Below, piece after piece: positions 5,212 to 51,378 of a stretch of DNA of 64,000 bases; positions within the stretch are counted from its first letter, which is position 1; the number at the start of each line of letters is the position of its first letter. Position numbers and translations under genes: made by a program. The notes below the pieces were generated by a model that saw only the letters and a program-made list of their open reading frames with translations, was not told the origin of the DNA and did no database searches. Source of the DNA: Plazaster borealis (Eukaryota; Echinodermata; Asteroidea; Forcipulatida; Labidiasteridae); the NCBI GenBank assembly GCA_021014325.1, contig CM037469.1:13830663-13894662 (forward strand), given 5' to 3'.

Positions 5212-5215
5212 ATGG
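5212..5215 (+). CDS. Exon 1 of the NR2E receptor (start codon plus one base)
   Basis: The coding part is only ATGG, followed at once by the strong donor GTAAGT. Joined in phase 1 to the acceptor TTTACAG at 6106 it gives M-G-R-T-L-P before the first zinc-finger cysteine, matching the short N-terminus expected for this receptor group. No other ATG fits the exon 2 phase as well. The rest of the exon would be 5' UTR. Confidence 0.82.
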
Positions 5216-6999
5216 GTAAGTGTGATCTTCAAGGAATCAGAAGAATAAACTCATGGATTCTACATCAATTAATTAGAACTGTTTAATTGTCTCTCAATTT
5301 GTCTTCAGTTTACGACTAACGTAATATTTGTTTTCTTCTAAACAAAACCTCTGCGTTATGTCGTTTTTGTGCAGTTGTGAAGAATTGTTTTCCCCTTTTC
5401 CTGATATTTTCTCAAAAGTAATGATGTCTGAATATAGCACCAAAAAAATACTACGTTGATTTGATTAGAAAACTTCATCTAACCATTTGATACATTTACT
5501 TTCAAAAGTCAATACCGTTAAATCATACCGTTTTATCTCTCATTCCGTTTTATCTTCATAAATAATTGATGCCAAAAACACACATAAAGTGAGTACCTTG
5601 ATTTGCCTTAGCACCATTTATGAACCATCCCCGAATCTACATTTATTATGAGCCAAGGGAAGTTGACTCGAAATAGAAAAACAAACAAACAACTAAGTTG
5701 TAAAAACAAACAACTATAATGGGCCTATCCACAATGACACTTTATAATCCTTACATTGGAGGCAGTTGAGTACCGTATTTGATGTTGTCACCAAATTATG
5801 TTCGATAGTTTCAGATGCCGGCGTTGAACAGCAAAAACCATTTTAAATAAAATTATTCGAAAGTACAATAATTCGAACAAAAGTCATCAACATTCAAAAT
5901 AAATCAAAAATCTAGAATTACATTTTTAAAAGTAAAACGCATTTACTTTCATTTTTGGTTACCTAACAAATCGGTTTACGCCTGTTGGTAAAACCTACCC
6001 TAATAGTTTCCCAGCTCGGTTTAAATTTTGAATTCCAGACCTCAAACTCTATCTATATAATTTGCTTTTTTCACTGACCGACAGTTTTCTCTATCGAACT
6101 TTACAGGTCGTACTTTACCCAACCCTGTGCCGTGTAAAGTATGCGGTGACAAGAGCTACGGAAAACACTACGGGGTCTACTGCTGCGACGGCTGTAGCTG
6201 TTTTTTTAAGCGGAGCATTCGACGCAATATGCGGTACACCTGCATCGGTAAAGGCAACTGCCTTGTTGATAAAGCACGGAGAAACTGGTGCCCTTACTGT
6301 CGGCTGAAAAAATGCTTCGGAGTCAACATGAACAAAAATGGTAAGAATTTACATTTTTAGAATAAAAGGGAATTGAATTTGAGCAGCATTATACAGGATT
6401 GGTAGAAGGATTAAAAAAAAACAGCATTGTTTAATTTTAGTCTGATTATGAAGTTCATAACTAGAACTATTTTTTTTATGTGACATATTTTCCTCTGAAA
6501 TGAAGTCATATTCGAGAGAACCTGAAAACCTCTATAAAAAAAAACATTAACAAAAAAACGCAACAGCTGATTTCGGTTGTTACAACCCAAATTAAGGACA
6601 ATAAGTTTACATGCTTACAATTGTGCATGGTTTTACACTATTTTCTCCCGACTCACACAACGGATTAATCCAAAATGTTCAAAGTTTTGTTATTTCATGT
6701 ATATGGTTGATGACAAAAAAACATGCACACTGTCTGCGAGTATTTTCTTCAGCTCTACCAATCCTGTATAATACCTTTATAACCAATACAAATTAATAAA
6801 GTCATTAATTGATAGTTCATGTAGTTGTGAGGACATTTTAATGGTGCTGTTCTTATACTGGTTTTTTAAGCAATTTCGACGATACTTCTTTGATTGTATC
6901 TCAAACTTTCTTTAAAATACAATCAGATTATAAACAGATCAAACAGATTTATCGTCGTCGACCTCGCTCATATGATACTTTAATTTTTTACATCAGAAT

Positions 7000-7046: not shown

Positions 7047-10000
7047 AACAATTTGATTTTAAGCTCAACATATTTACGTGATTATGTTTACAAAAATGTA
7101 GACAAAGTTCCTTTATCAAACTGACGAATTTCAGTTACTACCAGACACATTTTTTTGAGGATTGTGAAAAATTTTAAACTGTTGTAATTAAAGTTGAATT
7201 ATATTCACTTACACTGAAATCTGACTGTGATTTGTTAAAACAAATTAGCATGAATGAACAATCCATTGTGATATATTTCGTTTTAAAATGCTCATAATTG
7301 AACAATTCACTGTGCCTTGTTTGTTTTAAAATGATCATGATTAACACAATTCATTGTGCTATGTTTTGTTTTATGAGAAACTATTTTCTTTGATGACAAA
7401 ATTTGTACAGACGAAATTATACTGTGGCACGGATTTGTGTTAATACTTTAACAGACTTCATTTTATGTCTGTTGAATTTATGTAGCAAAAACAAATCTCT
7501 GATTGATGTTAATGCACATCAGGTATAATTACACCAAACGAAATCTAACTATGCAATTTTAAAAATGAAAAACTTTCATGAATAATGTCAACAACCTTCC
7601 GAGTCTAATTTGTTTTGCATGACCAAAGCTCGACACAAGTAGATAACTTTGACATTTTATCTCTGGAAATCCAATCTTAACACCGATACATTGCACCTGT
7701 TATGCTGCAAGCTCGAACGGTGGGCTCGCCTTAAAACAGGTCTACCCTAGACCCGTATGGGTTTGCTTTCCGTTCACCAATTTTAAGCCAAGCAACCCTT
7801 GCCATTTCCGGTGAAATGCAAGATGGGAAGGACACAATTACCAGGTACATGGTAACAACAGAAGCTTATGGAGACTTAATTAATTAACTAGGTTTTTTTT
7901 AAGTTGGATTGAAATGGTTAACAAAAACAAACAATCAAACAAACAAACAAACAACAGTGCGAGGCTGTTCATACAAACAAACAAACAGTGCGAGGCTGTT
8001 CATACGAATGTTAGTTCTATAGCACTGGTTTCACATTGGATTTTACATAAGTTTTGTGTCGAAAAACAAATTTACCCTACGGATAATTTTTCCAGCTTCC
8101 TATCTGATATTTATTTGAAAATTTCAACGAGAGAGACAAACTTATCATTTGAAGAAAAGAAAAAAAAACATTTATCTGACAACAGGCTTCTTTTGGCGAA
8201 ACACTTCACACACTTTAACTTTGTGTTTCAAATTGCACTAAGCGCCAATACAATAATCAGAGCTCTATTGTGATTGGTTTTCGATAAGACATGTCACCAA
8301 GGAAAGCCTTAAGTCTAAAACCCACCTAACGTATAAACACCATCATGTGAAACTTGAGTGAGACCCAATTAAATCGGACAGCGTCAGCAGTCAGATGTTT
8401 CCGTTGCGACCCACTAGCTCACGGGGGAAAAGTGGCAGCTTTGAAGGAATCAACAATTGGATGTATTATATAAAAACGCCGTAAGACTCGAGACCAGCGA
8501 GTATAAGAGGGGTGTCTCTTTTTACACTGAGACATACTGAAGGAACCAGCAGTCGTTTCAGTGGGGGAAATGCTTTGTTAGTATGAACACCACTTTTTTT
8601 CTCTCTCCTCTTGGCGTTATGTGTAAACGACTAGCCACGCGAGCAGTCCATTCATTGGACTGATTAGTGCCGGAAAATCATGGCACGCGCGCACAAGTGC
8701 CAGCATTATGAGCAGCAAGCCGAGCAGAAAGCGAATCTAAACGTTGTCGCGTGCGGTACGGTGGACATTTACTCAGCTTGCGCATTACTGGTGTAGTGTT
8801 TCTGTGGTTCTAACGCCGATGTGTTGAGCTGGGCATGGGGTTTGCTGAGCGCGTGGCTCGGCCAAGGCGACACAGTAGAGAAGATCAAAGATCACTGGTT
8901 GTTAGCATACTTGTGTCAGGCCGGCCCGGGCCAACGGGACCCATGGCACACAAGGAGGGTGCCAGTGTGTCAACTATTACAGATTTACCATGTGTGTTTT
9001 GTCTGTTCGTCACAGGGGGTACCCTTACCCCCCCCCCCGCCTTCCCCTTCACTTTCTTTACTTTCTGTTTTCTTCTAATGAGACATGCAGCCGTTAATCG
9101 ATCCACAGACGCCGCTGGACCACAAAACGTGCCGTTGTCACGAACAGGGATTTTAAATGACTTTGGTCGTGGAATAAATACAGCGTGTTAACCATTCTCT
9201 TTAGCCACCGTGCACAGAAAGTTGATTTTGTGCAGCTGCTGACGATTGCTAGCTCGGCACTTTTTTTTTCCCTCTCTTCACTCCCACCCTTTTATTTGTC
9301 GAATTCGGGAGTAAATTGAACGGACGAAAGTTCATTACGGTTAGTAATGCTTGGCAAGGCGGCAGTATTTTCATTGTAATTGCACACCTATACTCGGAGT
9401 GTGACAACCTTGTTCTATCAATACCGCCCTGTTTGCAAGGCACATGATAAAAGCCTCTTTCGAAATCATCATCCAGGCGCAAGCAAACAGAAATTTACCC
9501 CTCAAACAACTTGTAGTCAAACAGAAAAATACAAGAGGCAAAGTTTAAAGTCAATACGTCCCAAGTGAAGTCGGCAATAGATTAGAAAAAAAAGCACTGT
9601 TGATAAACGGAAATTGGAACAAGGGTATAACAATGGCGGAGATCAAAGATGGAGTCTCATGTCGGGGTATTAGACATAATGTGAGAGAGAGAAAAAAACC
9701 GCCAAATAAAAAATGCAGGGAGTTAAAGTGTCTGGAATTTATTGGATTCATTCGTATTATAGAGATGTCTTCATTAGTTTATCTTTTCCCACCTTATCTC
9801 ACTCTGTTGATAAGTGTGTATAATCTGGTCATTTAATTATTTGGAATTGCGCTATATAAGAGTCGATATTATTATTATTATTGAATAAGGAAAAACAACC
9901 ATACCTTGGGTTTTTTTCCACAAAATAATTGCATGTGCTTACCATTACAATAGAATTACATAAACAAAAAGTTTGTACGTAACAACTCCAATCTGACCGA

Positions 10001-13000
10001 CTGAAGTGACTATTCAACATACCGTAAGCCTCTATGCGTACTTTAAAAAGGTTCAACTGAGCAATTATTTTTTTAAGACCCGAAATAGTTAATGTTTAAC
10101 TTAATGCTACGCGCATGTGCAGTTTGGTCCATTTACTACATTAGCTCAGGGACTTAACTGACATTGTCCAAAATGTAAAATGATACAAAGTTCAGGATGT
10201 TTATACAGATAAGAGTGTTATATTCGTTGATATAATATTTAATTGTAATTTTACCATTCTCCCACAGCAGTACAGGAGGAACGCGGACCCAGAAAGAAGA
10301 AACCTCAACAGCAGCAAAAGACAGGTGTTCCGGGGGCGAACGGTGATCTGTGCTGCCAGGGGGCCGGCAGCGGTAGCCACGCCCGAGCCCTTGCCGCAGC
10401 GGCCGCCAAGTCCAACTCCAAACCATCATTCCGCCCCTTCCAGCCGTGGACGAGCAAGACATCGGGATGGAGGGAGCAAAACGCGTTGGTTGCCGCCGCG
10501 GCTCACGCTGGAGGACCGGGGAGTGCTTTCCGTGTTGTCGCGGTCCGGAGCGGGTTGTTTCCTGGCGGTGTGCCGCCTCACCTCTCGCCGACCCTACCGT
10601 TTGATGCGGCTGCAGACAGGCTACTTGTACCAACGCTACCGTCACAGTTTGCAGGATTTAGAATGGAGGACCGAGCTGGTAGGTTATCAATCCGAATATT
10701 TCGTATCTAGTTTCTTATAGTGTCTGAAAATAAATTATCAGTTTTCATGACAGAGAAAATTTTGCCATTGAATCGGAGCTAAGCCATTCCCAGCGACTAA
10801 TTCAAAATTGAAACAAAACAAGAAATGTCAAACATTTAAGGAAATATCGAAATGAATGACATTCATCCCACCAACGAAAATCACAAACTCCAGACCAAAA
10901 CTACTTACATCTTTCAACTCAACTTTCTGTTTGATCTTTTTCTTTAATATAGCTTTGATTGCCAAACGTTCTGCAGAAAGACCACCATTCCCGTGGGCCA
11001 GCCGTCCACCGGGAGCCGCAACAGTCCTCGCCCTGCCGGTAACGCCATCGCCCAGTACCTCCATTGAAGAGATTGCCACCCATATTCTTGTCCACGCCGT
11101 ACGAACCTCTCGATCTGTTCAGCCATTTCAATCTTTGGACACTTGGGACCAGATCTCTGTGTTACAGGAGTGTTGGAACGAACTGTTTCTTCTTCATGCT
11201 GCGTACTGGCCGGGGGTTGATTTCTGCGCTTTGTTGAGTCATTCCAATCTCAGGGCAGAGAGTTCAGGTGCTGGATCGTCAAGCTCATCTAGCGAGTCCT
11301 CGGTTAGTGTTTAAACCCTCGATATAAGAATATTTTAGAATGATGCAAGGATGACCTAAGATCCTTTACACCCTAAAACCTCCGGGTCAGAATTGACCCG
11401 GCTTCCGGGTCTCAGGGGACCTGACCAATTTCTGGGTCAGGCTGACCCGGAAAGTGTTTTTTTTTTATTTTTTTTTATGAGATTTTAACTCGGAATCCGC
11501 GTCAGTTTGACTCAATTCTGGGTCCTTTTGACACATAATGCGGGTCATACTGACCAACAAAGGGGTCAGGCCCCATGGGACCCGGATCCTGGTAAATTTT
11601 AACCCGGACGTTTTTAGAGTCTAGAAAAGAACCAGCACCACAACCCCATTAAAGAAAATTTCAAAAATTGTAGAAGGTTCACTTTAAGTGTATTTTTGGA
11701 ACAAAGCTTTGAAGAAATCTGAACTAAAAAAAAACCCCAAAATTACAAGAAAAGAAGACCGTTGAATACATTCTTTCATCGACTTACATTTTTGCCAGAC
11801 AATTAAAGAATTCCTTGTTCCCTCTCATCTCCAGGTTTCAATAAGACAGAGGAATGAAATCATTGACGACATACAAGAAATCACTGTCAGATTAAGAAGT
11901 CTCAATCTTAGCTCCTATGAGTTTGCATCCCTGGAGGCCATCGTACTCTTCAAACCAGGTGAATATAACACATCTATTCAGATAGTGGTATCTTTTCATA
12001 TAACACATCTATTCAGATAGTGATATATTTTTATATAACACATCCATTCAGATGGTGATATCTTTTTATATAACACTTCAATTCTGAAAGTGATATCTTT
12101 TTATATAACACATCCATTCTGAAAGTGGTGTCGTTTTATATAACACATCCATCGAAATAGTGGTCACTTTTATAAGTATAACACATTCATTCAGATAGAG
12201 GTATATTTTGTATAATAACACATCCATCCGGTGTGTCAGATAGTGGTATATTTTGTATAACACATCCATTCAGAGTGGTATCTTTCTAAATAACACGTCC
12301 ATTCAGATAGTGGTATGTTTTTACATAACACATCCATTCTAAAAGTGGTATCTTTATAACACATTCATTCAGAAAGTGGTCACTTTTATAAATATTACAC
12401 ATCCATTCAGATAGTGGTATATTTCGTATATAACACATACATTCAGATATAGTAACATTACATATTTTATTTCATCTTTATAGTTTATGCCAGTTAGTAA
12501 TTGTATACACCTTGCATGGGAATATTTCTCGGAGGAGGATCTTAATTATAGTTTACAACATACTGAATTCAACTCCATCTAACCAAACTAAGAATTAGTC
12601 TGGTTCCTGTAATCTTACCATCATTGTGTATATGAAAAAAGCTTTCAAGTCTGGGAGCAGCCAGAAGCCAAAGTGACTTATATTATAGCAGACACAATGG
12701 CGCCACAAATGAAATCACTCTCAGTTTCCCTGAGAGAAATCAAATCGATCCTCTTAAAATAATCTCAAAGAATCTTCCCAAACTCTCATCGATAAACCCC
12801 CTTATAGCTTCAAGAACTTACCCCCATCATTGGATTCGCGAAACAACCTCAGCAAGCTATATCCTTAATAAAGAAAAATCGTTATTCGTACGCGTTTGTA
12901 ACCCACTGGCAGAAGCCATTATCTGCAGTGGAACTAGATTAGCAACAAGGCCATCTCCTAATTTATAAAAAGATATACAGTGGAGCAAGTTTTAGAGGTT

Positions 13001-16000: not shown

Positions 16001-18782
16001 CCGTAAATTATAAGAAGACGAGCAGAGTATACTGTTCGAAACGTCGAGACCAGAGCCAACACTCCTCCAAAAGAGATTTTACACATGGTTGTAGAGGCAA
16101 GTTCACTATCTATTTAAAGACTCTGCTAGGGTCGAAACGTCAGGCCATTAACTATTTTTTGCATTTATACCATAGGTCCTTTTGGTTGGTAAGCAGTTTG
16201 CAACAGCTAATTCTGTTTTATCATTTACATTTATTTATAGTTACTTATTGTTTTTCCACACCATGCAAGGCTTCAAACGACACTTACCCATAAATTATGG
16301 CAACAAATTGAATCTCAATTTCTAAAAAGTTGAAAACTGATTACAGTAGATTGTGAAACGTTGATTTTTTTTTACAACGCCAAAGCGTCCCGAGCACTTC
16401 CTAAATAAACCATAATAAAATAGAATAAACGGTTTGTGTAATAATAGAATTGCTGATACTTGTGCAAATCCTTCTGAGAAACAAGTCCGTCATGTTTAAG
16501 GAACAGTGTTTGAATCCGCTCTTATTTTTCTTATCACGCAAAGAACTTTAATTAAAGGGTCTACATACGTTTGGTAATGACTCTTAAAATTAATGGCAAT
16601 AAAAACTTACTTGGTAGGAAGTACAGCAGCTTTGGATAGTATAATGCATTTTGAGAAACTTTTCACCTAGCTGCGGTTATGGAAAAACAAAAATCACATT
16701 TTATCCCCGAAAATTTGAATCTAAAAGGGAGTTACTGCAGTAACGTTTCTGAGATAGTGTATTCCAACTGCATATTATTCTTCCTGCGTGGACATAACCG
16801 CTCAAGATTTTCCGTAATATCTCAAAATTGCTATCCACCTTTTGAAATGAAATTTTCACAGGTTAGTTTTATGGTATATATCTACAACTATATAGGATCG
16901 AAACAAACAGTGAGTTCCTATTACCAAACATATACACTCCCTTTTAGAATAAAATAACACATACTAACATGTCAATGTGGTACACTTGCTCATCGGAAAA
17001 GTAACCGAATAAACGAATTCTGGTAGACGTCTTAATTACAAACTTGTTGGTGATAATATTTCATGACTTGCATGAATAACTAGTCCACCTTCACTGCACA
17101 AAAACTGGGGTGTTTAAATTGACACCAATGGTGTTTTCACATATAGATACCAAAAGAAAATTAAAATTGACTCCATAGGGTGTTAAAAGAAAAACACTCA
17201 ATTATGCCAAAACAATTACATTGGTGTTATTTTAGTACCATATGATGTAAATTTTGATTCACTCTTCGGTATCTATATGTGAAAACACCCATGGTGTCAA
17301 TTTTAACACCCCAGTTTTTGCAGTGTTGAAAATATTCTTATATTGTAAGAATATTGAGCAATCAATTTGCTCTTGTATTGAGCATTCAATTTGCAGAATA
17401 AACGAAATCTAGTTGTTGCCTTGATTACAGACTTTTGAATGACGATGTTTCATGACTTGCATGAGTGACTGTAGTCCTCTTTAAAAATATTATTTTCTTG
17501 TGAGAATATTGAACGATCAATTTGTCTCCTCACGTTGGTGCTTATTGATGACTTATTAGTGACTCAAACACAAACATGTCTTACGTTTAATACTTAAAGG
17601 GATTGTATATACGTTTGGTAATTGGAACCAAATGTTTTTTTCAATCCTATATAGGTAGATATATACCATAAAACTAACCTGTGAAAATTTCATTTCAAAA
17701 GGTGGTAGCGTTTTAGTGATATTGCCGAAAATCTGGAGCGGTTATTTCCACGCAGGAAGAATAAATCTGCAATTGGAATACAAACACAATTGAATCTGAG
17801 AAACGTTACTGCAGTAACGCTTCTCAGATTCAAATTTGTTGGGATAAAAACTGATATCTTTTTCCATAACCGCAGTACTTCGAAGGGAAAAGTTTTTTTT
17901 AAATGCGTTTTACTATCCAAAGCTGCTGTACTTTTTACAAAGAAGGTTTTTAATGCCATTATTTTTTTAGAGTCATTACCAAACATATACAGACCCTTTA
18001 AAATAAGTGGTGGGTAGCCGTGTTAGTCAGGTAATTGCAGAAAGGAAAATAAATCGTAGCACTGTAATGACTAGTAAGAAATATCTGCATAAGCTTTCGT
18101 GGCAACGAAAACTTAATAATTGTTATTTTCTTTGGATAATTTCATGTACCACCCAAACATTATGTCTTAAGTTTAAGACTTAATAACTACTGTTTTCATT
18201 GATTATTTCAGATACCACTCAAACACATTGTCGTACATTGAAGACTTAATAACTGTTATTTTTATTGACAATTTCCGATACCACTCAAATACATCATGTC
18301 TCACGCTTAAGCCTGAATACTTGCTATTTTGATCGATATTTTCAGATACCGTTCAAACACATTATGTCTTACGTTTAGGACTTAATAATTGTAATATTTT
18401 AATCGATATTTTCAGATACCACTCAAACACATTATATCTTATACGTTTAAGGCTGATTGCTATTTCGATCGATCATTTCAGATACCATTCAAACATATCA
18501 TGTCTTAAGTTTAGCACTAAATAATGACTACTTTCATTGATAATTTCAGATACCACTAAGACACTCCGAGAGAAGAGCAAGGTGGAGTTCTTCCGTGATC
18601 AAGCCCAAGTTGTCTTGGCTCAGTACGAAAACGTGGTCCACCCAGAGAGTCCGGCCCGCTTCGGCAAGCTCCTGCTCACCATGCCGTCTCTCAAACGAAT
18701 CAGCGGGGAAGATCTGGAGGAACTATTTTTCAGACGGACTCTCGGGAACGTTCAGATCGAAAAGATTCTTGACAGAGTATAA
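5212..18782 (+). CDS. NR2E-group nuclear receptor (tailless/PNR relative), six exons
   Basis: Joined exons 5212-5215, 6107-6340, 10268-10678, 10953-11302, 11835-11958 and 18550-18782 total 1356 nt, giving a 451-residue protein with its stop. All five introns are GT-AG and every junction keeps frame (phases 1,1,1,0,1). Residues 11-71 form a two-finger nuclear-receptor DNA-binding domain (Cys 11/14/28/31 and 47/53/63/66), followed by an [12 protein letters not shown] extension typical of NR2E proteins. Residues about 80-250 are a long Gln/Ala/Pro-rich hinge. Residues about 253-451 are the ligand-binding domain, with the [17 protein letters not shown] signature and a C-terminal [11 protein letters not shown] helix like the NR2E AF-2 region. 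The family acts in the nucleus as DNA-binding transcription factors, often repressors, in neural and eye development. The P-box CDGCSC differs from the CDGCSG of tailless and suggests the NR2E5/NR2E6 (Hr83-like) branch; the exact orthologue is unproven. Confidence 0.93.
6107..6340 (+). CDS. Exon 2 of the NR2E receptor: zinc-finger DNA-binding domain
   Basis: Encodes residues 2-79. Finger one has the P-box CDGCSC. Finger two has only five residues (IGKGN) between its first two cysteines, then [11 protein letters not shown]. Acceptor TTTACAG and donor GTAAGA are both canonical. The recognition helix reads [11 protein letters not shown], compared with CSGFFKRS in most NR2E proteins. Confidence 0.95.
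6386..6781. mobile_element. MITE family 3, copy 1
   Basis: Inverted ends ATTATACAGGATTGGTAGA and CTCTACCAATCCTGTATAAT bracket about 380 bp related to copies at 19892, 30630 and 58413. Internal words shared with those copies include GAAATGAAGTCATATTCGAG and GACTCACACAACGGATTAA. It begins less than 50 bp downstream of exon 2. No open transposase frame is present, so this is a non-autonomous element. Confidence 0.85.
7005..7050. repeat. (CAA)n microsatellite
   Basis: About fifteen uninterrupted CAA units inside intron 2, ending in CAATAACAA. Confidence 0.95.
7930..8006 (+). repeat. (CAAA)n tract with short direct duplication
   Basis: AAACAAACAAAC-type repeats flank two copies of CAGTGCGAGGCTGTTCATAC about 30 bp apart, consistent with slippage in the simple repeat. 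It lies in intron 2. Confidence 0.75.
10268..10678 (+). CDS. Exon 3 of the NR2E receptor: DNA-binding extension and hinge
   Basis: Encodes residues 80-216, beginning with [17 protein letters not shown], the C-terminal extension that follows the second finger in NR2E proteins. The remainder is low-complexity hinge rich in Ala, Gly, Pro and Gln, with a short poly-Ala run. The donor is GTAGGT. This exon is markedly more GC-rich than the neighbouring introns. Confidence 0.9.
10953..11302 (+). CDS. Exon 4 of the NR2E receptor: start of ligand-binding domain
   Basis: Encodes residues 217-333. Helix 3-5 signature elements are clear: F275, D282-Q283 and W291 in [17 protein letters not shown], followed by [10 protein letters not shown]. 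The exon ends in a serine run (residues about 324-333). The acceptor after TTTAATATAG and the donor GTTAGT are weaker than the others but keep the frame. A stop lies 10 nt beyond the donor, so failure to splice here would truncate the receptor. Confidence 0.9.
11371..11623. mobile_element. GGGTCA-rich inverted repeat element in intron 4
   Basis: The ends TACACCCTAAAACCTCCGGG and CCCGGACGTTTTTAGAGT are imperfect inverted repeats. The interior is built of GGGTCA/TGACCC words, including an exact GGTCA-GGC-TGACC palindrome at 11435-11447 and a 4-spaced version near 11384. Related copies lie at 43.4, 44.8, 48.5, 49.8 and 53.9 kb. It appears to be a non-autonomous element. Confidence 0.8.
11835..11958 (+). 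CDS. Exon 5 of the NR2E receptor: mid ligand-binding domain
   Basis: Encodes residues 334-374, including [18 protein letters not shown] and [13 protein letters not shown], the helix 7-8 stretch that in NR2E1-like receptors reads as FACLKxIVxFK. Acceptor CTCCAG, donor GTGAAT. A minisatellite starts at the donor itself. Confidence 0.92.
11959..12456 (+). repeat. Minisatellite starting at the intron 5 donor
   Basis: About thirteen or fourteen imperfect units of some 30-45 bp with the consensus ATAACACATCCATTCAGATA followed by GTGGTATCTTTT. The first unit begins within 6 bp of the exon 5 donor (GTGAATATAACACATC). Units vary in length and include a few insertions. A frame made only of the array on the minus strand has no meaning as protein. 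Confidence 0.9.
12457..14132 (+). other. Intron 5, no gene recognised
   Basis: AT-rich intronic DNA. Frames of about 80-120 codons at 12999-13361 (minus) and 13379-13624 (plus) show no domain, no splice context and no supporting composition. Nothing else was recognised. Confidence 0.4.
14137..14495 (+). mobile_element. tRNA-derived SINE A, copy 1 (near complete)
   Basis: The tRNA-like head carries GTGGCCGAGCCGCGGTTAAG (box A region) and GGGTTCGAGTCCCGG (box B, about 14200-14214). The body includes GTGCACGTAAAAGAACCCAG and CTTGCGAGCTACAGTGATTA, and it ends in TTTCATTACCAGAAATCATA with an (ATA)n tail. Copies recur at 21979, 32781 (minus) and 61915. The head resembles a Leu/Ser-type tRNA with an extra arm, but pairing is degenerate. 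Confidence 0.88.
14496..16009 (+). other. Intron 5, no gene recognised
   Basis: Overlapping frames on both strands at 14975-15564 have no recognisable motif. The 15060-15260 part is slightly GC-richer than its surroundings; I cannot assign it. Confidence 0.35.
16010..16302 (+). mobile_element. Penelope-like repeat fragment, copy 1
   Basis: Contains GAGCAGAGTATACTGTTCGA followed by AACGTCGAGACC, then ACACATGGTTGTAGAGGC, and a 3' part ATTTATTTATAGTTACTTAT with CCACACCATGCAAGGCTTCA. The same series of words occurs at 58880-59043 and, more diverged, at 46140-46345 and 51170-51375. The GAAACGTC motif next to a short hairpin resembles repeats of Penelope-like retroelements; no reverse transcriptase is present. 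A second GTCGAAACGTCAGG lies near 16132. Confidence 0.6.
16552..16945 (+). mobile_element. MITE family 2, copy 1
   Basis: Starts TTAAAGGGTCTACATACGTT and ends TTACCAAACATATACACTCCC. It contains the internal palindrome around GTTACTGCAGTAACGTTTCT and the box CACAGGTTAGTTTTATGGT. Inserted in intron 5 of the receptor gene. About 394 bp, with no coding frame. Confidence 0.88.
17092..17328. mobile_element. Foldback MITE, copy 1
   Basis: Long inverted arms (about 65 bp) from CACTGCACAAAAACTGGGGT to CCCCAGTTTTTGCAGTG, both containing GACACCAATGGTGTTTTCAC-like and ATATAGATACC words. A related copy lies at 21153-21396. No coding capacity. Confidence 0.85.
17594..18002 (-). mobile_element. MITE family 2, copy 2
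   Basis: Minus-strand copy of the element at 16552. The ends are TTAAAGGGATTGTATATACG and CATATACAGACCCTTTAA. The hairpin GAAACGTTACTGCAGTAACG lies at about 17800-17823. It sits in intron 5. Confidence 0.88.
18004..18118 (-). mobile_element. Short repeat module with GTAGCCGTGTTAGTC and CATAAGCTTTCGTGG
   Basis: The two ends of this 115-bp piece carry GTAGCCGTGTTAGTC and GCATAAGCTTTCGTGG. On the minus strand it reads CCACGAAAGCTTATGC to GACTAACACGGCTAC, a pair of words I remember from an abundant dispersed repeat in vertebrate genomes. A plus-strand relative of the first part is at 40677-40725. The class of element is uncertain. Confidence 0.5.
18112..18560 (+). repeat. Minisatellite carrying copies of the exon 6 splice acceptor
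   Basis: Seven units of about 60-70 bp: ACTTAATAACTG, then ATTTTCATTGAT, then TTTCAGATACCACTCAAACA, then ATTATGTCTTAAGTTTA. The last unit contains the true intron 5 acceptor (AG at 18548-18549) and the first bases of exon 6 (ATACCACT). Four earlier units keep an intact TTTCAG/ATACC junction (AG at 18210-18211, 18344-18345, 18414-18415 and 18480-18481). Two others are mutated. Confidence 0.92.
18550..18782 (+). CDS. Exon 6 of the NR2E receptor: C-terminal ligand-binding domain and stop
   Basis: Encodes residues 375-451: [34 protein letters not shown], then [20 protein letters not shown] before TAA (18780-18782). RFGKLLL and the FF-(R/K)-T-(I/L)-GN terminal helix are strong NR2E-type signatures. 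The AG at 18549 is the only acceptor in the array followed by a long open frame. Confidence 0.95.
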
Positions 18783-20276: not shown

Positions 20277-20422
20277 GCACATGTTGTAGTTTTGAATACA
20301 GTAAGACGAAGAGAGTGTATACGAACTGAGAAAGTTTGCAACTTTTATCAAACCAGTGACAGATATATAAAAACCTGGTTTACAGTATAATATGCAATAT
20401 TCAAATCGAGGGACCAGTATTA

Positions 20423-20822
20423 AAGGGTCCGTATACGTTTGGTAATGACTCTGAAAATTAATGGCAATAAAAACTTACTTGGTAAGAAGTACAGCAGCTT
20501 TGGATAGTAAAATGCATTTTTGGGGGAAAAATCACTTCAAGGTACTGCGGTTATGGAAAAAGATATCACTATTTATCCCAATAAATTTGAATCTGAGAAG
20601 CGTTTCTGACAGTAACGTTTCTCAGATTGTGTATTCCAATTGAAGAGTATTCTTCCCGCGCCTTGACAAACCGCTCCAGATTTTTGGCAATATCTCAAAA
20701 TTGCTATCCACCTTTTGAAATGAATTTTTCACAGGTTAGTTTTATGGTATATATCTACAACTATATAGTATTGAAACAAACAGTGGGTTCCAATTACCAA
20801 ATGTATACAATCCCTTTACCGA
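20423..20822 (+). mobile_element. MITE family 2, copy 3
   Basis: The left end TTAAAGGGTCCGTATACGTT and right end CCAAATGTATACAATCCCTT bracket the standard 400-bp body, including CAGCTTTGGATAGTAAAATG and TTTTCACAGGTTAGTTTTAT. Confidence 0.9.
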
Positions 20823-22322: not shown

Positions 22323-22683
22323 ATATTTATAGCAGCATTGTCTATCAGCGAGTATTGCCATCCTAACTGATTTTGTTTCACTAAATACCTTTGAAAAATC
22401 ATTTGTGGACGCCTTATTAAAAAATTATATTTTGCTTTCAATTAATCTATGAAGAATAAATAATTTTGTAAATTTATGTTATAATGGCAAAAAATGCACA
22501 CAAAGGAAATCAAATGTAACACATGATTCGGCTGTGTTTCTTGATGAGGATTTAGGACAGGACGGTCTAAGAATGGAGAATAATGGTCGCTTGATTCACA
22601 GAGCAAAACCGATTCGTCCGGTTTGGGATTTAACAGTTTATATCAACAGGAGAAAGAAGACTGGATTATGTGATCGAGTCAAG

Positions 22684-23440
22684 CCATTAGCCGCTTCATC
22701 AACTGACCTTTGAGACATAGTCTGCCTAGCCATAGCCGCTTCATCAACTGACCTTTGAGACATAGTCTGCCTAGCCATAGCCGCTTCATCAACTGACCTT
22801 TGGGACATAGTCTGCCTAGCCATATCCACTTCATCAACTGACCTTTGAGGCATAGTCTGCCTAGCCAGAGCCGCTTCATCAACTGACCTTTGAGACATAG
22901 TCTGTCTAGACTTAGCCGCTTCATGCTGACCTTTGAGACATAGTCTGCCTAGCCATAGCCGCTTCATCAACTGACCTTTGAGACATAGTCTGCCTAGCCA
23001 TAGCCTCTTCGTCACTTGACCTTTGAGACATATAGTCTGCCTAGCCATAGCCGCTTTATCAACTGACCTTTGAGACATAGTCTGCCTAGCCATAGCCGCT
23101 TCATCAACTGACCTTTGAGACATAGTCTGCATAGCCATATCCACTTCATAAGCCGACTTTTGAGGCATAGTCTGCCTAGCCATAGCCGCTTCATCAACTG
23201 ACCTTTGAGACATAGTCTGCCTAGCCTTAACCGCTTCATCAACTGACCTTTGAGACATAGTCTGCCTAGCCTTAGCCGCTTCATCAACTGACCTTTGATA
23301 CATAGTCTGCCTAGCCATAGCCGCTTTATTAACTGACCTTTGAGACATGTCTGACTAGCCATAGCCGCTTCATCAACTGACCTTTGAGACATAGTCTGCC
23401 TAGCCTTAGCCGCTTCATCAACCGGCCACCAAGACACAGT
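22684..23440 (-). repeat. 45-bp minisatellite, open as 15-residue repeats
   Basis: About sixteen tandem units of 45 bp (TGACCTTTGAGACATAGTCT followed by GCCTAGCCATAGCCGCTTCATCAAC). Because 45 is a multiple of three, an open minus-strand frame at 22638-23348 reads repeats of MSQRSVDEAAMARQT, ending in a short unique tail. A second minus-strand frame (23012-23551) enters from 44 unique residues and shifts frame after two units. Other frames are also open through the array, so openness alone is not evidence of a gene. No signal peptide or known domain is seen. It is best treated as a repeat with uncertain coding status. Confidence 0.85.
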
Positions 23441-33234: not shown

Positions 33235-33510
33235 GGTACTGTGGTTATGGAAAAATATATCACTTTTTATCCCCCAAAACATTTGAATCTGAGAAGCGTT
33301 ACGCGTAACGCTTCTCAGAGTGTGTATTCCATTGCAGATTATTCTTCCTGCGTGGACATTACCGCTCCAGATTTTCGGCAATATCTCAAAAACGCTACCA
33401 CCTTTTGAAATAAAATGTTCACAGGTTAGTTTTATGGTATATATCTACAACTATAGGTTTGAAACAAACAATAGGCTCCAACTACCAAACGTGTACGATG
33501 CCTTTTAGAC
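33235..33510 (+). mobile_element. MITE family 2, 5'-truncated copy
   Basis: Starts mid-element at GGTACTGTGGTTATGGAAAA and runs through the palindrome GAAGCGTTACGCGTAACGCT to CCAAACGTGTACGATGCC. The central palindrome here reads GTTACGCGTAAC, shorter than the GTTACTGCAGTAAC of other copies. Confidence 0.82.
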
Positions 33511-42562: not shown

Positions 42563-43445
42563 TAACTTTTTTTGTGATCAGCCGGCAAAAATGAGCATTT
42601 ATTTTAATAAACCATACTGAGTTCCACATTTCAGATTAAGTTGTTGTAACTAAAGCATTTGATCAGTTTGTTTGTGCATTTTTATTAAGCTGTTAACACA
42701 AACATTTATATGATAATCTTAATAAATATTTTAAAATTATAATCAACTACAAAAATCTGAAAAATCAGAAAGGTGAACAAAATGCTTTTCAATACAGCCT
42801 ATATTTTTGTTTCCTCTCTCCCTCTCTCTTTGAAAATTTAACTAAATCTACAATAGCTTTGGACAACGCTAAAACGGATAGTACCTTACTGAGTACATAC
42901 AATCATGGTAACATTTTTAACAGTAAGTGCAGATTGACCATTTTGTTTCCTCTTTTTTTCCTCTCCTTTTTTTACAGAGAGATTCAACTAGCCAAATTCT
43001 AGAATTGATCAAAACGTTTACGAAGTGAAACAAGAAAATAGTATGCAAAAGCACTTCAAGAACACTTTTTTTTCTGAAAAAAAAAATACATTACAATTTT
43101 CCACAAAAATTATCCATCATATAACACTTGTTTTTACTCCTCAGGAATACAATACGACCATGTCTATATTTTATTAAAGGCTTGTAGATGATGACAATAT
43201 TTATATAAAAAAAGGAGAAGTTGCGGCCAGCTCCCGAAAGAAAAGGAATGTTAAGTTTATACATGTTTGTTTGTAGATGCTTGGCACCTCTGAAAAATAG
43301 TGTTTTACTGAGAGGTCTCCCCGGGGTAAAGAAGAAATAAAAAAATAAATACATAAATAAAGTTGGGCCATCTTAAACTGGGATGCATAATTTAAAGTTT
43401 CATAAATCAGAAAGACTTATTTGCCATTATTATATTGACATGATT

Positions 43446-43856
43446 GTGGTTACATTCGAAAAAACTTCTGGATCAGAATTGATCCGAATCCGGGTCCCGT
43501 TGGGCCTGACCCAATTCTGGGTCAGTATGACCCGGAATCTGTGGGCGTTTAAGAATCCACGGCTTCGGCTTCGGATTCGGCTCAGGCTAGCTAGGCCCCT
43601 CAGTTGTTTTGACTTTACGCGTGCTATGCGTTCAGGGATTCAGACGAGAGAACGGAGCCTGAAGTCTAAGCCTGAGCCTGAGTCTCCGTTTCGTAAGACG
43701 TCAAAATGACCCAGAAATGGGTCAAACTCACGCAGGATCGGGGTTTATATACAATTTTTAACCCTATTCTGGGTCAGCCTGACCCAGAAATGGGTCAAGC
43801 CCTCTGGAACCCGGAATCTGGGTTAAGTCTGACCCGGGAGTTTTTAAAGTGTAGCA
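43446..43856. mobile_element. GGGTCA element in unit A, first copy
   Basis: Ends AAAAACTTCTGGATCAGAAT and CCCGGGAGTTTTTAAAGTGT. It has exact GGTCAnnnTGACC palindromes at 43520-43532 and 43772-43784. A roughly 140-bp piece (43545-43690) with CGGCTTCGGCTTCGGATTCG and AAGCCTGAGCCTGAG lies in the middle and may be a nested insertion. Confidence 0.8.
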
Positions 43857-44228
43857 TTTAAAATTTGTATATCGGTTTCAATATTTATCTATTTATACTC
43901 AACACAGTGTACAAAATAAGACAAAGGCAACACTTATGGTTGCGTGATCTCTCTCTAGTCCCAGAACCACAAGCTGCTGCATGAAAACTTAGAGGTACAG
44001 TTTGCAAGACACTTGCAGTAAATTAATAAAATTGCCGTATACTATAGGGCTTTTTCTTTTCGCGCAATTCGTCTTTTCCGTTAATACTAACAATAAATGA
44101 CATATTATTCCATGCTCATAATTAATAATTCATAAAAGAACAATACTATGTCTCATATAGTGCAGATTAACACACGTTGATCACAATAGTGTTTGAAGGA
44201 TCTACCTGGAATTTCAATATTCCTACTG

Positions 44229-44630
44229 ATTTAAAGGAATTGTATACGTTTGGTAATTGTAACCCACTGTTTGCTTCAATACTATATAATTTATGTATAT
44301 GTACTAAAGATTTAATTAACCTGTGAAAATTTCTTTTCAAAAGGTGGTAGCGTTTTTGAGATATTGCCGTGAATCTGGAGCGGTTATGTCCACGCAGGAA
44401 GAATAATCTGCAATTGGAATACACTATCTGAGAAACGTAACCGCAGTTACGCTTCTGAGATTCAAATGGGGGATAAAAACTGATATATCTTTTTCCTTAA
44501 CCGTAGTACTTCGAAGTGAAAAGTTTCTCAAAATGCATTATACTATCCAAAGCTGCTGTACTTCTTCCGAGTAAGTTTGTATTGCCATTAATTTCCAGAG
44601 TCATTACCAAACGTATACAGACCCTTTAAT
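44229..44630 (-). mobile_element. MITE family 2 in unit A
   Basis: Minus-strand copy, TTTAAAGGAATTGTATACGT to ACGTATACAGACCCTTTAA. The palindrome here reads GTAACCGCAGTTAC, compared with GTTACTGCAGTAAC in unit B. Confidence 0.9.
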
Positions 44631-44818
44631 CCTGAGGCATCGGGTTTTTGGGTGGTTTCTTTTTTACAATCACCATGATGAAATTTTTTTACATTATTGG
44701 TAGTACTGAATGAGCACAAGGGACAACATTCACCTCAGAATATTCATTAACTATTGTTCCCATCATTTTTAATAGGATTAAACAAGTCAACTGTACTAGC
44801 GAGGGAATCACAAAAGTA

Positions 44819-45530
44819 CGCTCAAAACCCCCGGGTCAGAATTGACCCGAATTCCGGATCATGAAGAGGACTCATTTCTGGGTCAGTACAACCTGGGCCC
44901 AATGTCATACGGCTGCTTAAGCACAAAAAGTAGCTAAGCATAACAAAATCACGCTTACCAGAATAAGTTTACCAGCCAAACTGCCATGTCACAAGTACAA
45001 TTTGTGACTGCTCATTTCTGCTTAGCAGCAAATTGTTAAGCAATATTTTCTGTTAAGCAGCTATATCACACTGACCCCAAACTGGGTGGTCGGGTTGGCG
45101 TATAGTGGTATCTCGGGGTTTTCTTCCCACATCTAAAACTGAAACTTCCTTCCTTGTCTTCATCCATATTATCCCTTTTGAGATATGGTGGACACTATAG
45201 GAGTGCGCTGTTTGGTTTGGGTGTATACAGATAGATTTACCAAAACCCAATAGCGCCCTCGTAGTGTGTCCACCAAATCTCAAAATTGCTAATTGGGGTC
45301 TTGGCATGCAAGTGCAGTGATTAAGTTTGATTTTCTGAGAGTCCTCGGCTTTAGGCATAAATCAGAATAAATGAAATGATATGAAACTGTCGAACTGACG
45401 TTGAATCATAGTCAAAATCCACATTTCTAACCAGTTTCCCGGGTCAGCCTGACCCATAAGTGGTTCAGGTTTCCATGGGACCCGGAAACCGCGGTCAATT
45501 TTGACCCAAAAAACAGGAGTTTTAGGGTGT
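44819..45530. mobile_element. GGGTCA element with three nested insertions (unit A)
   Basis: The outer halves are CTCAAAACCCCCGGGTCAGA at the left and AGGAGTTTTAGGGTGT at the right. Inside are a GGGCCCAATGTCATACGGCT repeat (44890-45060), a truncated SINE C (45078-45370) and a 108-bp MITE within that SINE (45177-45284). An exact GGTCAnnnTGACC palindrome is at 45442-45454. Confidence 0.75.
45177..45284. mobile_element. 108-bp MITE nested in SINE C (unit A)
   Basis: The inverted ends TTTTGAGATATGGTGGACAC and GTGTCCACCAAATCTCAAAA enclose about 65 bp. It separates SINE C words found together at 26035-26060. The unit B copy is at 50207-50314. Confidence 0.8.
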
Positions 45531-46137
45531 AATTGTAATGAAGTTATTACACGGTTTCAAGTTTGATTTGCCTGAACGTGAGATTGATTTTTCTTAATAG
45601 GTGTTGAATTTGCATGATAAAGACTCGGGAAAGTACTAAGTATGTGCTTTTAAAAAAGGTCGGTGTACAGGTAAAACCGAAATAATATTGATAATTGATA
45701 ATTTTTTAATTTTTTAAAACTTTTTCAAACAAGTTGATGAGCGTTCCTTCTGACAGCATGTACTTGATTTCGCTTTGGGTGAATGGGGTGGCTCAATGGC
45801 TAAACGGTTAAAAGGAATAAGTAACTACCGGTAAGTTATGTTGGCTTTTCAAAATAAATTACAACGATAATACCTTTCGCCCAGGAAGTGGTTAAGAAAT
45901 AGGACAGTTCTTTTCAGAACTTGGTAGTCTCCCGAATTCCGAAATCTACTCTGCAGCAGTAGAATACATAGCAAGACAAGTTCTCAAAGAACAACATCTA
46001 CACGGCGAAGGTTTATAGATATACACATTTATATACATAGATACCTCACCATGCAATGCCTAAAATCCTATAAACAACAATTGATTAGCTTTTACTGGTA
46101 ACAACCATGTGGTTCAAGTATTTTTGGGAAAGGTATT

Positions 46138-46348
46138 GTCTTCATGAAGACGAAGAGAGTCGTCTTCCTGAAGACAAGTAGAACACACCGCTCGAAACGT
46201 CGAGACTCTACTCTTAAAGCCTATTCCACCCAGTTCTGTTGAGAATCAATGCTTCTCGTGATGGCGGATGGAGATTTTAATCACTTGTTGTTACTCATAA
46301 ACAAACTCAGTTCTTTTCCCTACACCGTGCGAAGCTACCAATCTTATG
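46138..46348 (+). mobile_element. Penelope-like repeat fragment (unit A)
   Basis: Contains CCGCTCGAAACGTCGAGACT and CCCTACACCGTGCGAAGCTA, the diverged equivalents of words in 58880-59040. The CTGATGA word is CTGAAGA here, so any ribozyme-like core is broken. The unit B copy is near 51168-51378. Confidence 0.55.
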
Positions 46349-46609
46349 AGTACTTACTTTATTTGTTCTGCTTTCAGCTGATTAAATGTGGTGGTGCCTT
46401 ACTAATTATTGGATAACCAGTTCACCATCCAGAGATGTTTGAAACATTGTGACAATTGTTCTAAGTCTTTTAAGACGCTACTGTGGATGCAGAGTTAGTG
46501 AGTTCAGTTTCCTTAAAGATTGTCTTCTATGAGAAGGTAAATCTCGGCCCATTATCGCGGAAACCTACAGAGGACTTTACTGACGGTCTATCGATGCCCG
46601 ATATTGTTT

Positions 46610-47536
46610 TCAATCATCCGCCCGGTCCAGTCTACCCGCCAGTGTTTTGAGCGCCTTTCTGAATTGTTTGTATTTGATGGCATAAATGAAAGGGTTGGCA
46701 CAACTGTTCACTGATACCATTGCTACTGTTATAAGATAAATGGTAGAGGAAAAATCGATGTCATATCCAAGGGAAAAGAGTGTAAATATGAAGCAGTTGG
46801 GCGTCCAGCAGACGGTAAAGGTTACGAAGACAATCAGGAGGGTCTTGAAGGTGTTACGTCGGGCTCGCATCAGGGACTCTCTCTGGTTGTCGATAGCTCC
46901 ACCCTCACCAGAGATAGCAGCTGCCGGTGCAGGTCCAACTCTCCCAGCTCCCTTCTTCAAGACTACTGAGATGTGGACGTAGACAATCAGCATCACAACA
47001 ACAGGAATCATGTAGATAACACTGACAGTCGCAACTCCAAGTACCTCTGGATGTTTCACCGACTTCTGCAAACACTTCCCATTTTCAAGAACCCGGAGAA
47101 AGATGTTGTAAGTAACGAACAGAAATGCTGAAATCCAGACACAGAGTAGAGCTACAGTAACATTTCTACGAGTGCCTACAACTTGGTATTTGAAAGGAAA
47201 CACTATCGCTAGGTACCTCTCCAGAGTCAAAGCTACCAGGTTGAAGGTGGAGGTGGTAAAAATGGCCCAAATGAAGTACTGAGAAACCCAAATGTGGCAC
47301 ATGAGTATCCCTCCAACCCCGGACGGGATTGGGTCTGGGATGGGTATCAGACTGCTGAGTAGAATCAGAAGCGATCCGAAGAAATCGATTACAGCTTGGT
47401 TGAAGATGAAGGCGTTGGTGATAGTGTGCATGAAGTGGACTTTGGCGATCACTACACACACTAAACCATTACCACAGACGCCAAGAACTCCAACGATACA
47501 CTGAAAAGTCTTAAGAGCTAAACTCTGTTCTGCCAT
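46610..47536 (-). CDS. Class A (rhodopsin-like) GPCR, orphan, copy A
   Basis: An intronless 308-residue seven-transmembrane receptor of the plasma membrane. TM1 is about 10-33 (N23 in GNGLVC), TM2 about 41-63 (D51), TM3 about 78-110 (C80 at its start, ERY 106-108 replacing DRY), TM4 about 124-146 (W134), TM5 about 168-194, TM6 about 229-254 (CWTP 243-246) and TM7 about 265-287 (NPFIY 281-285). C80 and C155 can form the usual extracellular disulphide. The N-terminus is very short, with no signal peptide and no glycosylation site before TM1. I chose the ATG at 47536 (MAEQ) because the third copy also begins MAEQ; an in-frame GTG lies two codons upstream. It couples presumably to G proteins; the ligand is unknown. 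The style recalls lineage-expanded echinoderm receptors, an inference from memory. Confidence 0.93.
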   Translation of the reverse strand: MAEQSLALKTFQCIVGVLGVCGNGLVCVVIAKVHFMHTITNAFIFNQAVIDFFGSLLILLSSLIPIPDPIPSGVGGILMCHIWVSQYFIWAIFTTSTFNLVALTLERYLAIVFPFKYQVVGTRRNVTVALLCVWISAFLFVTYNIFLRVLENGKCLQKSVKHPEVLGVATVSVIYMIPVVVMLIVYVHISVVLKKGAGRVGPAPAAAISGEGGAIDNQRESLMRARRNTFKTLLIVFVTFTVCWTPNCFIFTLFSLGYDIDFSSTIYLITVAMVSVNSCANPFIYAIKYKQFRKALKTLAGRLDRADD

Positions 47537-47700
47537 GTTCACAAGCGAAGTGTTCTAAGCAGCAGATGTAGCTGATGCAGGATCAATCATAACAAATGAA
47601 AATGTCACAAGAGAAGCACACCTCTTATTTATCGAGTCATATCCAATGGTCAATGCAGTTGTCAACCACTTTTCAATAGCTATTTCTAAACAATTCAATT
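47537..47700 (-). promoter_or_regulatory. Candidate core promoter of GPCR copy A
   Basis: Read on the minus strand, upstream of the ATG there is CCATTGGATATGACTCGATA followed by AATAAGAGG, giving a TATA-like GATAAATAAGAGG at about 47622-47634, roughly 90 bp before the start codon. The unit B equivalent reads CCCGATAATATGAGG, so the AT box differs. No start site is proven. Confidence 0.4.
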
Positions 47701-48473
47701 TTTACTCCACATATCATGAAAAATGCATCCTTGTGGAGCATTCTTTTGTCCTTTCCATTGTCCCTGCACTTAGCAGTTTCTCATAGACTTTCCTTGTGGA
47801 GCCTTCATGGAGTCCTTTTATTTTCCATTTTTTTTGCTGTTTTCTTGGTCTCCATAATGTACCGAAAGTAGAGCAATGGACGCGTGTAGGAAAAATTCTT
47901 AAACTACATAATAATCTAATCATTTTGTACATTAATATAATAAGAGTAATATTGAATGGGTTGCATAAGGAAACGCAGCTTCTTTTTTTCCTCTCCTTTT
48001 TTTTATAGAGAGATTCAACTAGCCAAATTCTAGAATTGATCAAAACGTTTACGAAATGAATCAAGAAAATAGTATGTAAAAGCACTTCCAAAACACTTTT
48101 TTCTGAAAAAAAAAATACATTACAATTTTCCACAAAAATTATCCATCATACAACACTTGTTTTTACTCCTCAGGAATACAATACGACCATGTCTATATTT
48201 TATTAAAGGCTTGTAGATGATGACAATATTTATATAAAAAAAGGAGAAGTTGCGGCCAGCTCCCGAAAGAAAGGGATATTAAGTTTATACATGTTTGTTT
48301 GTAGATGCTTGGCACCTCTGAAAAATAGTGTTTTACTGAGAGGTCTCCCCGGGATAAAGAAGAAATAAAAAAATTAATACATAAATAAAGTTGGGCCATC
48401 TTAAACTGGGATGCATAATTTAAAGTTTCATAAATCAGAAAGACTTATTTGCCATTATTATATTGACATGATT

Positions 48474-48886
48474 GTGGTTACATTCGAAAAAACTTCTGGA
48501 TCAGAATTGATCCGAATCCGGGTCCGTTGGGGCCTGACCCATTTCTGGGTCAGTATGACCCGGAATCTGTGGGCGTTTAAGAATCCACGGCTTCGGCTTC
48601 GGATTCGGCTCAGGCTAGCTAGGCCCCTCAGTTGTTTTGACTTTACGCGTGCTATGCGTTCAGGGATTCAGACGAGAGAACGGAGCCTGAAGTCTAAGCC
48701 TGAGCCTGAGCCTCCGTTTCGTAAGACGTCAAAATGACCCAGAAATGGGTCAAACTCACGAAGGATCGGGGTTTATATACAATTTTTAACCCTATTCTGG
48801 GTCAGCCTGACCCAGAAATGGGTCAGGCCCTCTGGAACCCGGAATCTGGGTTAAGTCCGACCCGGGAGTTTTTAAAGTGTAGCATT
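48474..48886. mobile_element. GGGTCA element in unit B, first copy
   Basis: Equivalent of 43446-43856. Exact GGTCAnnnTGACC palindromes lie at 48548-48560 and 48800-48812. Confidence 0.8.
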
Positions 48887-49254
48887 TAAAATTTGTATAT
48901 TATTCAATATTTATCTATTTATACTCAACATAGTGTACAAAATAAGACAAAGGCAACACTTATGGTTGCGTGATCTCTCTCTAGTCCCAGAACCACAAGC
49001 TGCTGCATGAAAACTTAGAGGTACAGTTTGCAAGACACTTGCAGTAAATTAATAGAATTGCCGTATACTATAGGGCTTTTTCTTTTCGCGCAATTCGTCT
49101 TTTCCGTTAATACTTACAATAAATGACATATTATTCCATGCTCATAATTAATAATTCATAAAAGAACAATAATATGTCTCATGTAGTGCAGATTAACACA
49201 CGTTGATCACAATTGTGTTTGAAGGATTTACCTGGAGTTTCAATATTCCTACTG

Positions 49255-49658
49255 ATATAAAGGGATTGTATACGTTTGGTAATTGGAACCCACTGTTTGC
49301 TTCAATACTATATAATTTATGTATATGTATACTAAAGATTTAATTAACCTGTGAAAATTTCTTTTCAAAAGGTGGTAGCGTTTTTGAGATATTGCCGAAA
49401 ATCTGGAGCGGTTATGTCCACGCAGGAAGAATAATCTGCAATTGGAATACACTATCTGGGAAACGTTACTGCAGTAACGCTTCTGAGATTCAAATGGGGG
49501 ATAAAAACTGATATATCTTTTTCCATAACCGCAGTACTTCGAAGTGAAAGGTTTCTCAAAATGCATTATACTATCCAAAGCTGCTGTACTTCTTCCGAGT
49601 AAGTTTGTATTGCCGTTAATTTTCAGAGTCATTACCAAACGTATACAGACCCTTTAAT
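49255..49658 (-). mobile_element. MITE family 2 in unit B
   Basis: ATAAAGGGATTGTATACGTT to ACGTATACAGACCCTTTAA, with an intact hairpin AACGTTACTGCAGTAACGCT. It is more like the family consensus than the unit A copy. Confidence 0.9.
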
Positions 49659-49848
49659 CCTGAGGCATCGGGTTTTGGGGTGTTTTTTTTTTTACAATCA
49701 CCATGATGAAAGAAAATTACATTATTTGTAGTACTGAATGAGCACAAGGGACAACATTCACCTCAGAATATTCATTAACTATTGTTCCCATCATTTTTAT
49801 TAGGATTAAACAAGTCAACTGTACTAGCGAGGGAATCACAAAAGTATA

Positions 49849-51167: not shown

Positions 51168-51378
51168 GTCTTCATGAAGACGAAGAGAGTCGTCTTCCTG
51201 AAGACAAGTAGAACACACCGCTCGAAACGTCGAGACTCTACTCTTAAAGCCTATTCCACCCAGTTCTGTTGAGAATCAATGCTTCTCGTGATGGCGGATG
51301 GAGATTTTAATCACTTGTTGTTACTCATAAACAAACTCAGTTCTTTTCCCTACACCGTGCGAAGCTACCAATCTTATG
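51168..51378 (+). mobile_element. Penelope-like repeat fragment (unit B)
   Basis: Equivalent of 46138-46348 with the same CCGCTCGAAACGTCGAGACT and CCCTACACCGTGCGAAGC words. It inherited the insertion by segmental duplication, so it is not an independent copy. Confidence 0.55.

Follow-up and report, generated by a model that had tools for sequence, protein, structure and literature searches.

The analysed window, a 64,000-nucleotide stretch of contig CM037469.1 (assembly GCA_021014325.1) of the sea star Plazaster borealis, contains a gene which, judged from its sequence, encodes an NR2E-type (NR2E3/PNR-like) nuclear receptor, and a minisatellite spans the last intron/exon boundary of this gene. 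The domains recognized with Pfam were a C4 zinc finger (PF00105) and a hormone-receptor ligand-binding domain (PF00104). Among solved structures, those of NR2E3 (4log) and NR2E1 (4xaj) matched the last two exons best; the zinc finger taken alone had its top score against COUP-TF1. The closest relatives carry the names NR2E1-like or photoreceptor-specific nuclear receptor. Joining of the five exons 6107–6340, 10268–10678, 10953–11302, 11835–11958 and 18550–18782 yields a protein of 449 residues, counted from RTLP, and with the candidate ATG G exon upstream of them position 18550 becomes the start of coding exon 6 (Table 1).

The best match of the predicted protein was a protein of Asterias amurensis, with 98% identity over the full length, followed by proteins of Acanthaster, Patiria and sea urchins. 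The A. amurensis protein is continuous across the 11958/18550 joint, and KPDT was found without an insertion at this joint of exons 5 and 6 in all five aligned echinoderm relatives, which are protein models in which exon borders are not visible but whose sequences are in keeping with regular splicing. Among eight short contig-derived proteins, the likeness to the receptor ended just before the D of KPDT in four cases and just after KP-G in three, and these seven breakpoints indicate that the intron is placed at the same joint in those genomes, too. Scans of genome contigs and viral contigs revealed no relatives of the locus. For a G protein-coupled receptor encoded elsewhere in the window, the A. 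amurensis relative has 84% identity and another relative reaches 90%. A lancelet origin of the window, which the anatomy of the array might suggest, was rejected because this protein and the nuclear receptor are those of a sea star near Asterias.

Positions 18111–18564 were recognized by the program Tandem Repeats Finder as one array with a period of 68, 6.7 copies, 74% matches and a score of 422. The junction could be anchored in each of seven units (at 18146, 18212, 18278, 18346, 18416, 18482 and 18550), and the distances from anchor to anchor were 66, 66, 68, 70, 66 and 68 bp. The first-pass annotation, which was made from the letters alone, had proposed that seven tandem units end in the true exon 6 acceptor, that TTTCAG followed by ATACC is kept in four upstream units, and that a minisatellite has duplicated whole acceptor cassettes across the last acceptor. 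All of this was borne out, and the four AG positions (18211, 18345, 18415 and 18481) proved to be exact. The AG is gone in the other two of the six upstream units, which read TTTCATGTACC at 18146 and TTTCCGATACC at 18278. The initial five exon bases (ATACC) are present in five of the six upstream units and the initial eight, ATACCACT, are exact in three, while beyond these eight bases the upstream units resemble the exon more loosely over about ten further bases. The sequence TTTCAGATACC occurs five times in the window, with every copy inside the array, compared to an expectation of 0.05, and none of 100 shuffles reached five. The array therefore spans the intron/exon boundary, with the splice signal and exon bases copied, and the authentic junction and the coding sequence have stayed intact.

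Table 1. Coordinates of the receptor exons, the units of the array at the last acceptor and the features at the donor end of the last intron.
Feature	Position	Strand	Remarks
Candidate coding exon 1	5212–5215	+	ATG G, followed by GTAAGT; fits the MG start of relatives
Coding exon with C4 zinc-finger DNA-binding domain	6107–6340	+	
Receptor coding exon (hinge region)	10268–10678	+	
Receptor coding exon	10953–11302	+	
Penultimate coding exon	11835–11958	+	Ends with ...VLFKP-G (phase 1); donor CAG/GTGAAT at 11959
Donor-end minisatellite	11963–12449	+	35-bp unit, 13.6 copies, from intron position +5; units without a copy of the CAG/GTGAAT donor
TAGTGGTATCT	11983–11993	+	Belongs to the first donor-side unit; reverse-complementary without mismatch to AGATACCACTA at the true acceptor (18548–18558)
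Unit 1	18111–18163	+	No AG left (TTTCATGTACC); leftmost unit and the most diverged one, with 58–68% identity to the rest
Unit 2	18164–18229	+	Decoy acceptor intact, AG 18210–18211
Unit 3	18230–18295	+	AG lost (TTTCCGATACC)
Unit 4	18296–18363	+	Decoy acceptor intact, AG 18344–18345; frame of the true site, but stop upstream of it
Unit 5	18364–18433	+	Decoy acceptor intact, AG 18414–18415
Unit 6	18434–18499	+	Decoy acceptor intact, AG 18480–18481
Unit 7	18500–18567	+	True acceptor (AG 18548–18549) and initial 18 exon bases
Last coding exon	18550–18782	+	77 residues (predicted C-terminal ligand-binding domain including AF-2); stop codon 18780–18782

The anatomy of this locus is that of a “mirage” in an echinoderm, the word being taken in the minisatellite sense in which it is used in the available parts of two papers on lancelets (PMC3087553, PMC3902484). 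It is quite probable that this “mirage”-type minisatellite, at the junction of the last intron with the terminal coding exon of a sea star NR2E receptor gene, leaves 18550 as the acceptor that is mostly used, and that the upstream copies are tolerated decoys. The duplicated cassette consists of about 50 bp of the 3′ end of the intron, with a branch-like motif, a pyrimidine stretch and the AG, and of about 8–18 bp of the exon. Coding sequence conserved in starfish relatives makes up the exon part of the unit, and the copies therefore probably derive from the true junction. The array would have expanded leftwards into the intron, and with the authentic junction at its right edge the mature mRNA would remain unchanged. 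Downstream of each decoy there are no more than 18 exon-like bases before intron sequence resumes, and 18550 is expected to dominate because the real exon follows that site alone; the spliceosome would thus choose mainly 18550 and would use the upstream copies rarely or never.

The pairwise identity among the seven units, with unit 1 counted from 18097, was 58–85%, and the array is most likely old, diverged and tolerated. The suggestion of the first-pass annotation that its copy number might vary between individuals describes a possibility, but this range of identities points to an array that would change only slowly. A minisatellite at 22682–23422 (45-bp unit, 16.5 copies, 90% matches), in which more than one minus-strand frame is open, is more uniform than the acceptor array and thus the likelier candidate for length polymorphism. 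Upstream of the receptor gene lies a further tandem array of 3.3 copies of a 97-bp unit (844–1151). Tandem arrays are liable to collapse or to expand in assemblies, and the whole structure could in principle be an assembly artefact or the product of a wrong gene model. However, the observed divergence of the units is not what a duplication during assembly would make, the gene model agrees with five aligned echinoderm proteins, and this explanation is regarded as extremely improbable.

When the reading frame is continued from the donor at 11958 in its phase, 12, 59, 11 and 19 novel codons precede the stop for the decoys at 18211, 18345, 18415 and 18481, respectively, and all four stops fall upstream of 18550. 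For the decoys at 18415 and 18481 a stop within about 20 codons, before the AF-2 helix, had been predicted earlier. The short distances were confirmed, but the loss would not be restricted to AF-2: decoy use would remove the entire last-exon part of the protein (77 residues), which by alignment to 4log comprises the helices at the C-terminal end of the ligand-binding domain as far as AF-2. Nonsense-mediated decay, which had also been named as a possible fate of the decoy products, is unlikely by the classical route. Classical decay is junction-dependent, i.e., an exon junction is needed downstream of the stop. It is not expected here since the presumed terminal exon contains the decoy stops and no junction would follow them, provided that the 3′ untranslated region has no intron.

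Several results weigh against the view that 18550 is mostly used and that the copies are neutral, and they are the ones that an alternative can draw on, namely that, through competing acceptors, receptors lacking the last 77 residues of the ligand-binding domain make up a measurable fraction; such receptors would possibly be dominant-negative or constitutively DNA-bound. Scores were calculated for the 350 AGs between 12000 and 18549 with approximate acceptor and branch-point matrices; these, like the approximate donor matrix used below, were not trained on P. borealis. The true site reached an acceptor score of −0.46 (rank 47 of 350), and the decoys at 18211, 18345, 18415 and 18481 reached 1.91, 0.09, −0.55 and 0.28 (ranks 13, 41, 51 and 36). 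For the remaining acceptors of the receptor gene the scores were 5.06, 4.49, 1.20 and 8.88, leaving 18550 as the lowest of the five. Branch-point signals at the last unit alone had been named in the first-pass annotation as a finding that would speak against competition; instead, the branch-like motif was weakest at the true site, with a score of 3.0 compared to 3.6–5.6 at the four decoys. When the acceptor score and the best branch motif were combined, the true site had rank 61 of 350 and the decoys had ranks 18, 15, 32 and 25. Local strength thus fails to distinguish 18550 and would rather point to the decoys: four intact cassettes with branch-like motifs score about equal to or above a weak true site, and each of their frames stops before the real exon. 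Many further intronic AGs also outscored the true site. In classic experiments with duplicated acceptors, weight was reportedly given to the downstream exon sequence, and this argues for 18550. Minisatellites with several splice sites reportedly exist in humans: an interferon-induced one, reportedly with 12-bp units, contains multiple splice donors according to the title of a report from 1995 (first author Turri); in that case the sites are donors rather than acceptors. Cassette exons inside the acceptor array were rejected as a further possibility, the best donor-like sites within 18112–18549 scoring 0.7 (at 18146) and 0.1 (at 18391).

The conservation of the junction also belongs to the results that favour competing acceptors. 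No other 11-column window of the unit was as conserved as the 11-base junction core when all seven units were compared and gaps were treated as letters (permutation p 0.0056). In units 2–6, one of 55 cells was changed in the core compared to 39 of 271 in the rest (p 0.006), and in units 1–6 three of 66 compared to 57 of 326 (p 0.008). Dropping the CpG columns from the rest gave p values of 0.02 (units 2–6) and 0.03 (units 1–6), and counting by columns gave 0.04 and 0.09; the cells share ancestry and are not independent, which makes these p values too low. The core is thus steadier than pure drift would predict, on evidence that is mixed. The loss of the AG in two of the six copies corresponds to the general divergence of the array, as the 57 changed cells among 326 non-core cells lead to an expectation of about 1.9 of six. 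Moreover, the few changes in the core tend to strike the AG (2 of 12 cells, compared to 1 of 54 in the flanks, in units 1–6, p 0.08; 1 of 10 compared to 0 of 45 in units 2–6, p 0.18), which hints weakly at decoy loss and thus speaks against maintained competition.

Splicing data from other systems bear on both views. Human internal tandem repeats at exon–intron boundaries of duplicated genes can alter splicing and produce alternative forms, according to the available part of PMC2812944, and this adds to the points in favour of competing acceptors. For lancelet arrays of the same kind, Adh3 data and reverse transcription polymerase chain reaction with globin transcripts suggest, in the accessible text of PMC3087553, that regular splicing is undisturbed, although cryptic use is held to be possible there, which is a further point for competition. 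No truncated receptor form separate from the single A. amurensis protein was present among the best 120 of 579 relatives, where clustering at 90% could hide one. The proposal of the first-pass annotation that the array acts as a set of competing acceptors is therefore not supported, given its likeness to lancelet arrays that are described, in the parts of PMC3087553 and PMC3902484 that were available, as leaving regular splicing undisturbed. With this precedent a measurable output of truncated receptors is unlikely, a regulatory role being possible but improbable, and the array is most likely harmless.

The donor end of the same 6.6-kb intron carries another minisatellite (Table 1). One of its motifs, AGTGGTATCT, is reverse-complementary to AGATACCACT at the acceptor junction. 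A relation of the two arrays by direct repeat was rejected, because they have no direct word of ten bases in common and only one of nine. With the matrices described above, donor-like sites were found inside the donor-end array at 12231 (score 8.5) and 12313 (7.2), compared to 8.9 for the true donor, and via these two sites the donor end of the intron may offer decoys as well.

The complementarity raised the question of whether the arrays pair via AGTGGTATCT and AGATACCACT, juxtapose donor and acceptor, and thereby aid the weak last acceptor. The first donor-side unit contains a perfect 11-base complement to the true junction, and a complementary 10-mer is common to three donor-side and three acceptor-side units. 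Among 2000 shuffled consensus pairs, ten bases were reached by 0.55% in this orientation and by 1.7% in either. The pairing of the whole arrays was calculated as −124.0 kcal/mol compared to −98.8 (sd 7.1) for shuffles, none of 60 being as strong, and as −111.7 with one array reversed. When the intron ends were folded jointly (the first 100 bases, and the last 80 plus 20 exon bases), the 11-base helix was present in the minimum-energy fold. However, the complementarity was spotted post hoc, the decoys at 18210 and 18414 also have an 11-base partner (at 12273), so that the true site is not singled out, and the helix would mask the true AG. Furthermore, 55% of 500 interior pieces paired as well as the intron ends, 8.4% of 500 shuffles matched them, and both reversed-strand controls paired more strongly. 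Bridging of the intron through general pairing of its ends was rejected, as it did not exceed the interior controls.

The position of the arrays was also compared with random placement. For a set of three arrays with a period of at least 30, from which 7943–8005 (31 bp, 2.1 copies) was left out, at least two had one end or the other no farther than 15 bases from a junction in 0.43–0.44% of the trials. The value rose to 0.9% when 7943–8005 was restored as a fourth array and to 3.4% for all seven arrays with a period of at least 10, and an array merely touching a junction was common (8.0–15.8%). The placement is thus rare by chance on the strict measure alone and weakens as further arrays are counted, and a link between arrays and junctions within the receptor gene is suggestive only. 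Pairing of the two arrays in aid of the last acceptor is consequently regarded as very unlikely. Even further fetched is a two-ended device, in which four working decoys would be combined with a donor-side complement covering or juxtaposing the junction copies, and the array length would tune what fraction of the sea star receptors lacks the C-terminal ligand-binding domain; this is scarcely probable.

Further repeats were observed in the window. AGATACCACT also occurs at 25871, 45104 and 50134 (minus strand), with CCAACCCGACCACCC within a few bases after it and in a context that differs from the array; our impression is that these copies look like part of a dispersed element. A dispersed repeat of 270–400 bp with 85–87% identity is present at 16551–16944, 17611–17878, 20415–20818, 33235–33505 and 49258–49662, and two of its copies lie within the receptor intron. 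Another one of about 375 bp has five copies with 88–94% identity (26870, 37457, 55350, 57884 and 61037) and a partial sixth at 42270. Positions 42951–53019 are duplicated in tandem (period about 5.03 kb, 97.8% identity), and this appears to be either a recent duplication or an uncollapsed haplotype. Each copy contains a reading frame of 314 residues for a G protein-coupled receptor. A third, inverted copy at 59966–60901 (plus strand) has about 93% identity to the other two and a reading frame altered near the 3′ end, and it is a possible pseudogene. A scan of the window with Rfam yielded a single tRNA-like match and nothing else.

Among the papers listed from the minisatellite literature on sea stars (starfish) and sea urchins, covered by titles and the starts of abstracts and with most subscription papers outside the coverage, no boundary-spanning case in an echinoderm was found. 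One paper, going by its title and the start of its abstract, reportedly deals with tandem repeats of an immune gene family in sea urchins. The array described here adds an echinoderm to the lancelets as carriers of boundary-spanning “mirage” arrays, and suggests that within the deuterostomes such arrays are more widespread than the literature found indicates. It also offers a natural test of the choice of the spliceosome among five near-identical acceptors, with the real exon after the last one alone.

The lancelet set, as far as given in the available parts of PMC3087553 and PMC3902484, comprises Adh3, the globins BflGb6 and BflGb9, and troponin C. It has in common with the sea star array the tandem duplication of an intron/exon boundary, and in many of the units, though not in every one, the splice signals are retained. 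In BflGb6 the 3′ end of an intron and the 5′ part of an exon are repeated (PMC3087553), as at the receptor gene. The BflGb6 units are, however, 150–160 bp long and 81–100% identical, whereas the sea star units are shorter (68 bp) and more diverged; the units of the Adh3 mirage (10–72 bp) bracket the 68 bp. In the lancelet the copy number varies between haplotypes, with six and three copies, and boundary-spanning arrays have been proposed as a route to new introns (PMC3087553). The Adh and troponin C mirages are said in the accessible part of PMC3902484 to yield no aberrant mRNAs, and for PGBD5, which is likened to mirages, this is merely suggested. Human boundary repeats likewise place a minisatellite at a splice boundary, but for them the available part of PMC2812944 gives transcript evidence for altered introns, whereas the sea star array is known from genomic sequence. 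In contrast to the lancelet cases, the present array lies in a sea star, at the terminal coding exon of a nuclear receptor, and is accompanied by a second, different array at the donor end. The term mirage was coined in lancelets and describes a structure; the sea star case thus bears on the range of that structure and not on its anatomy.

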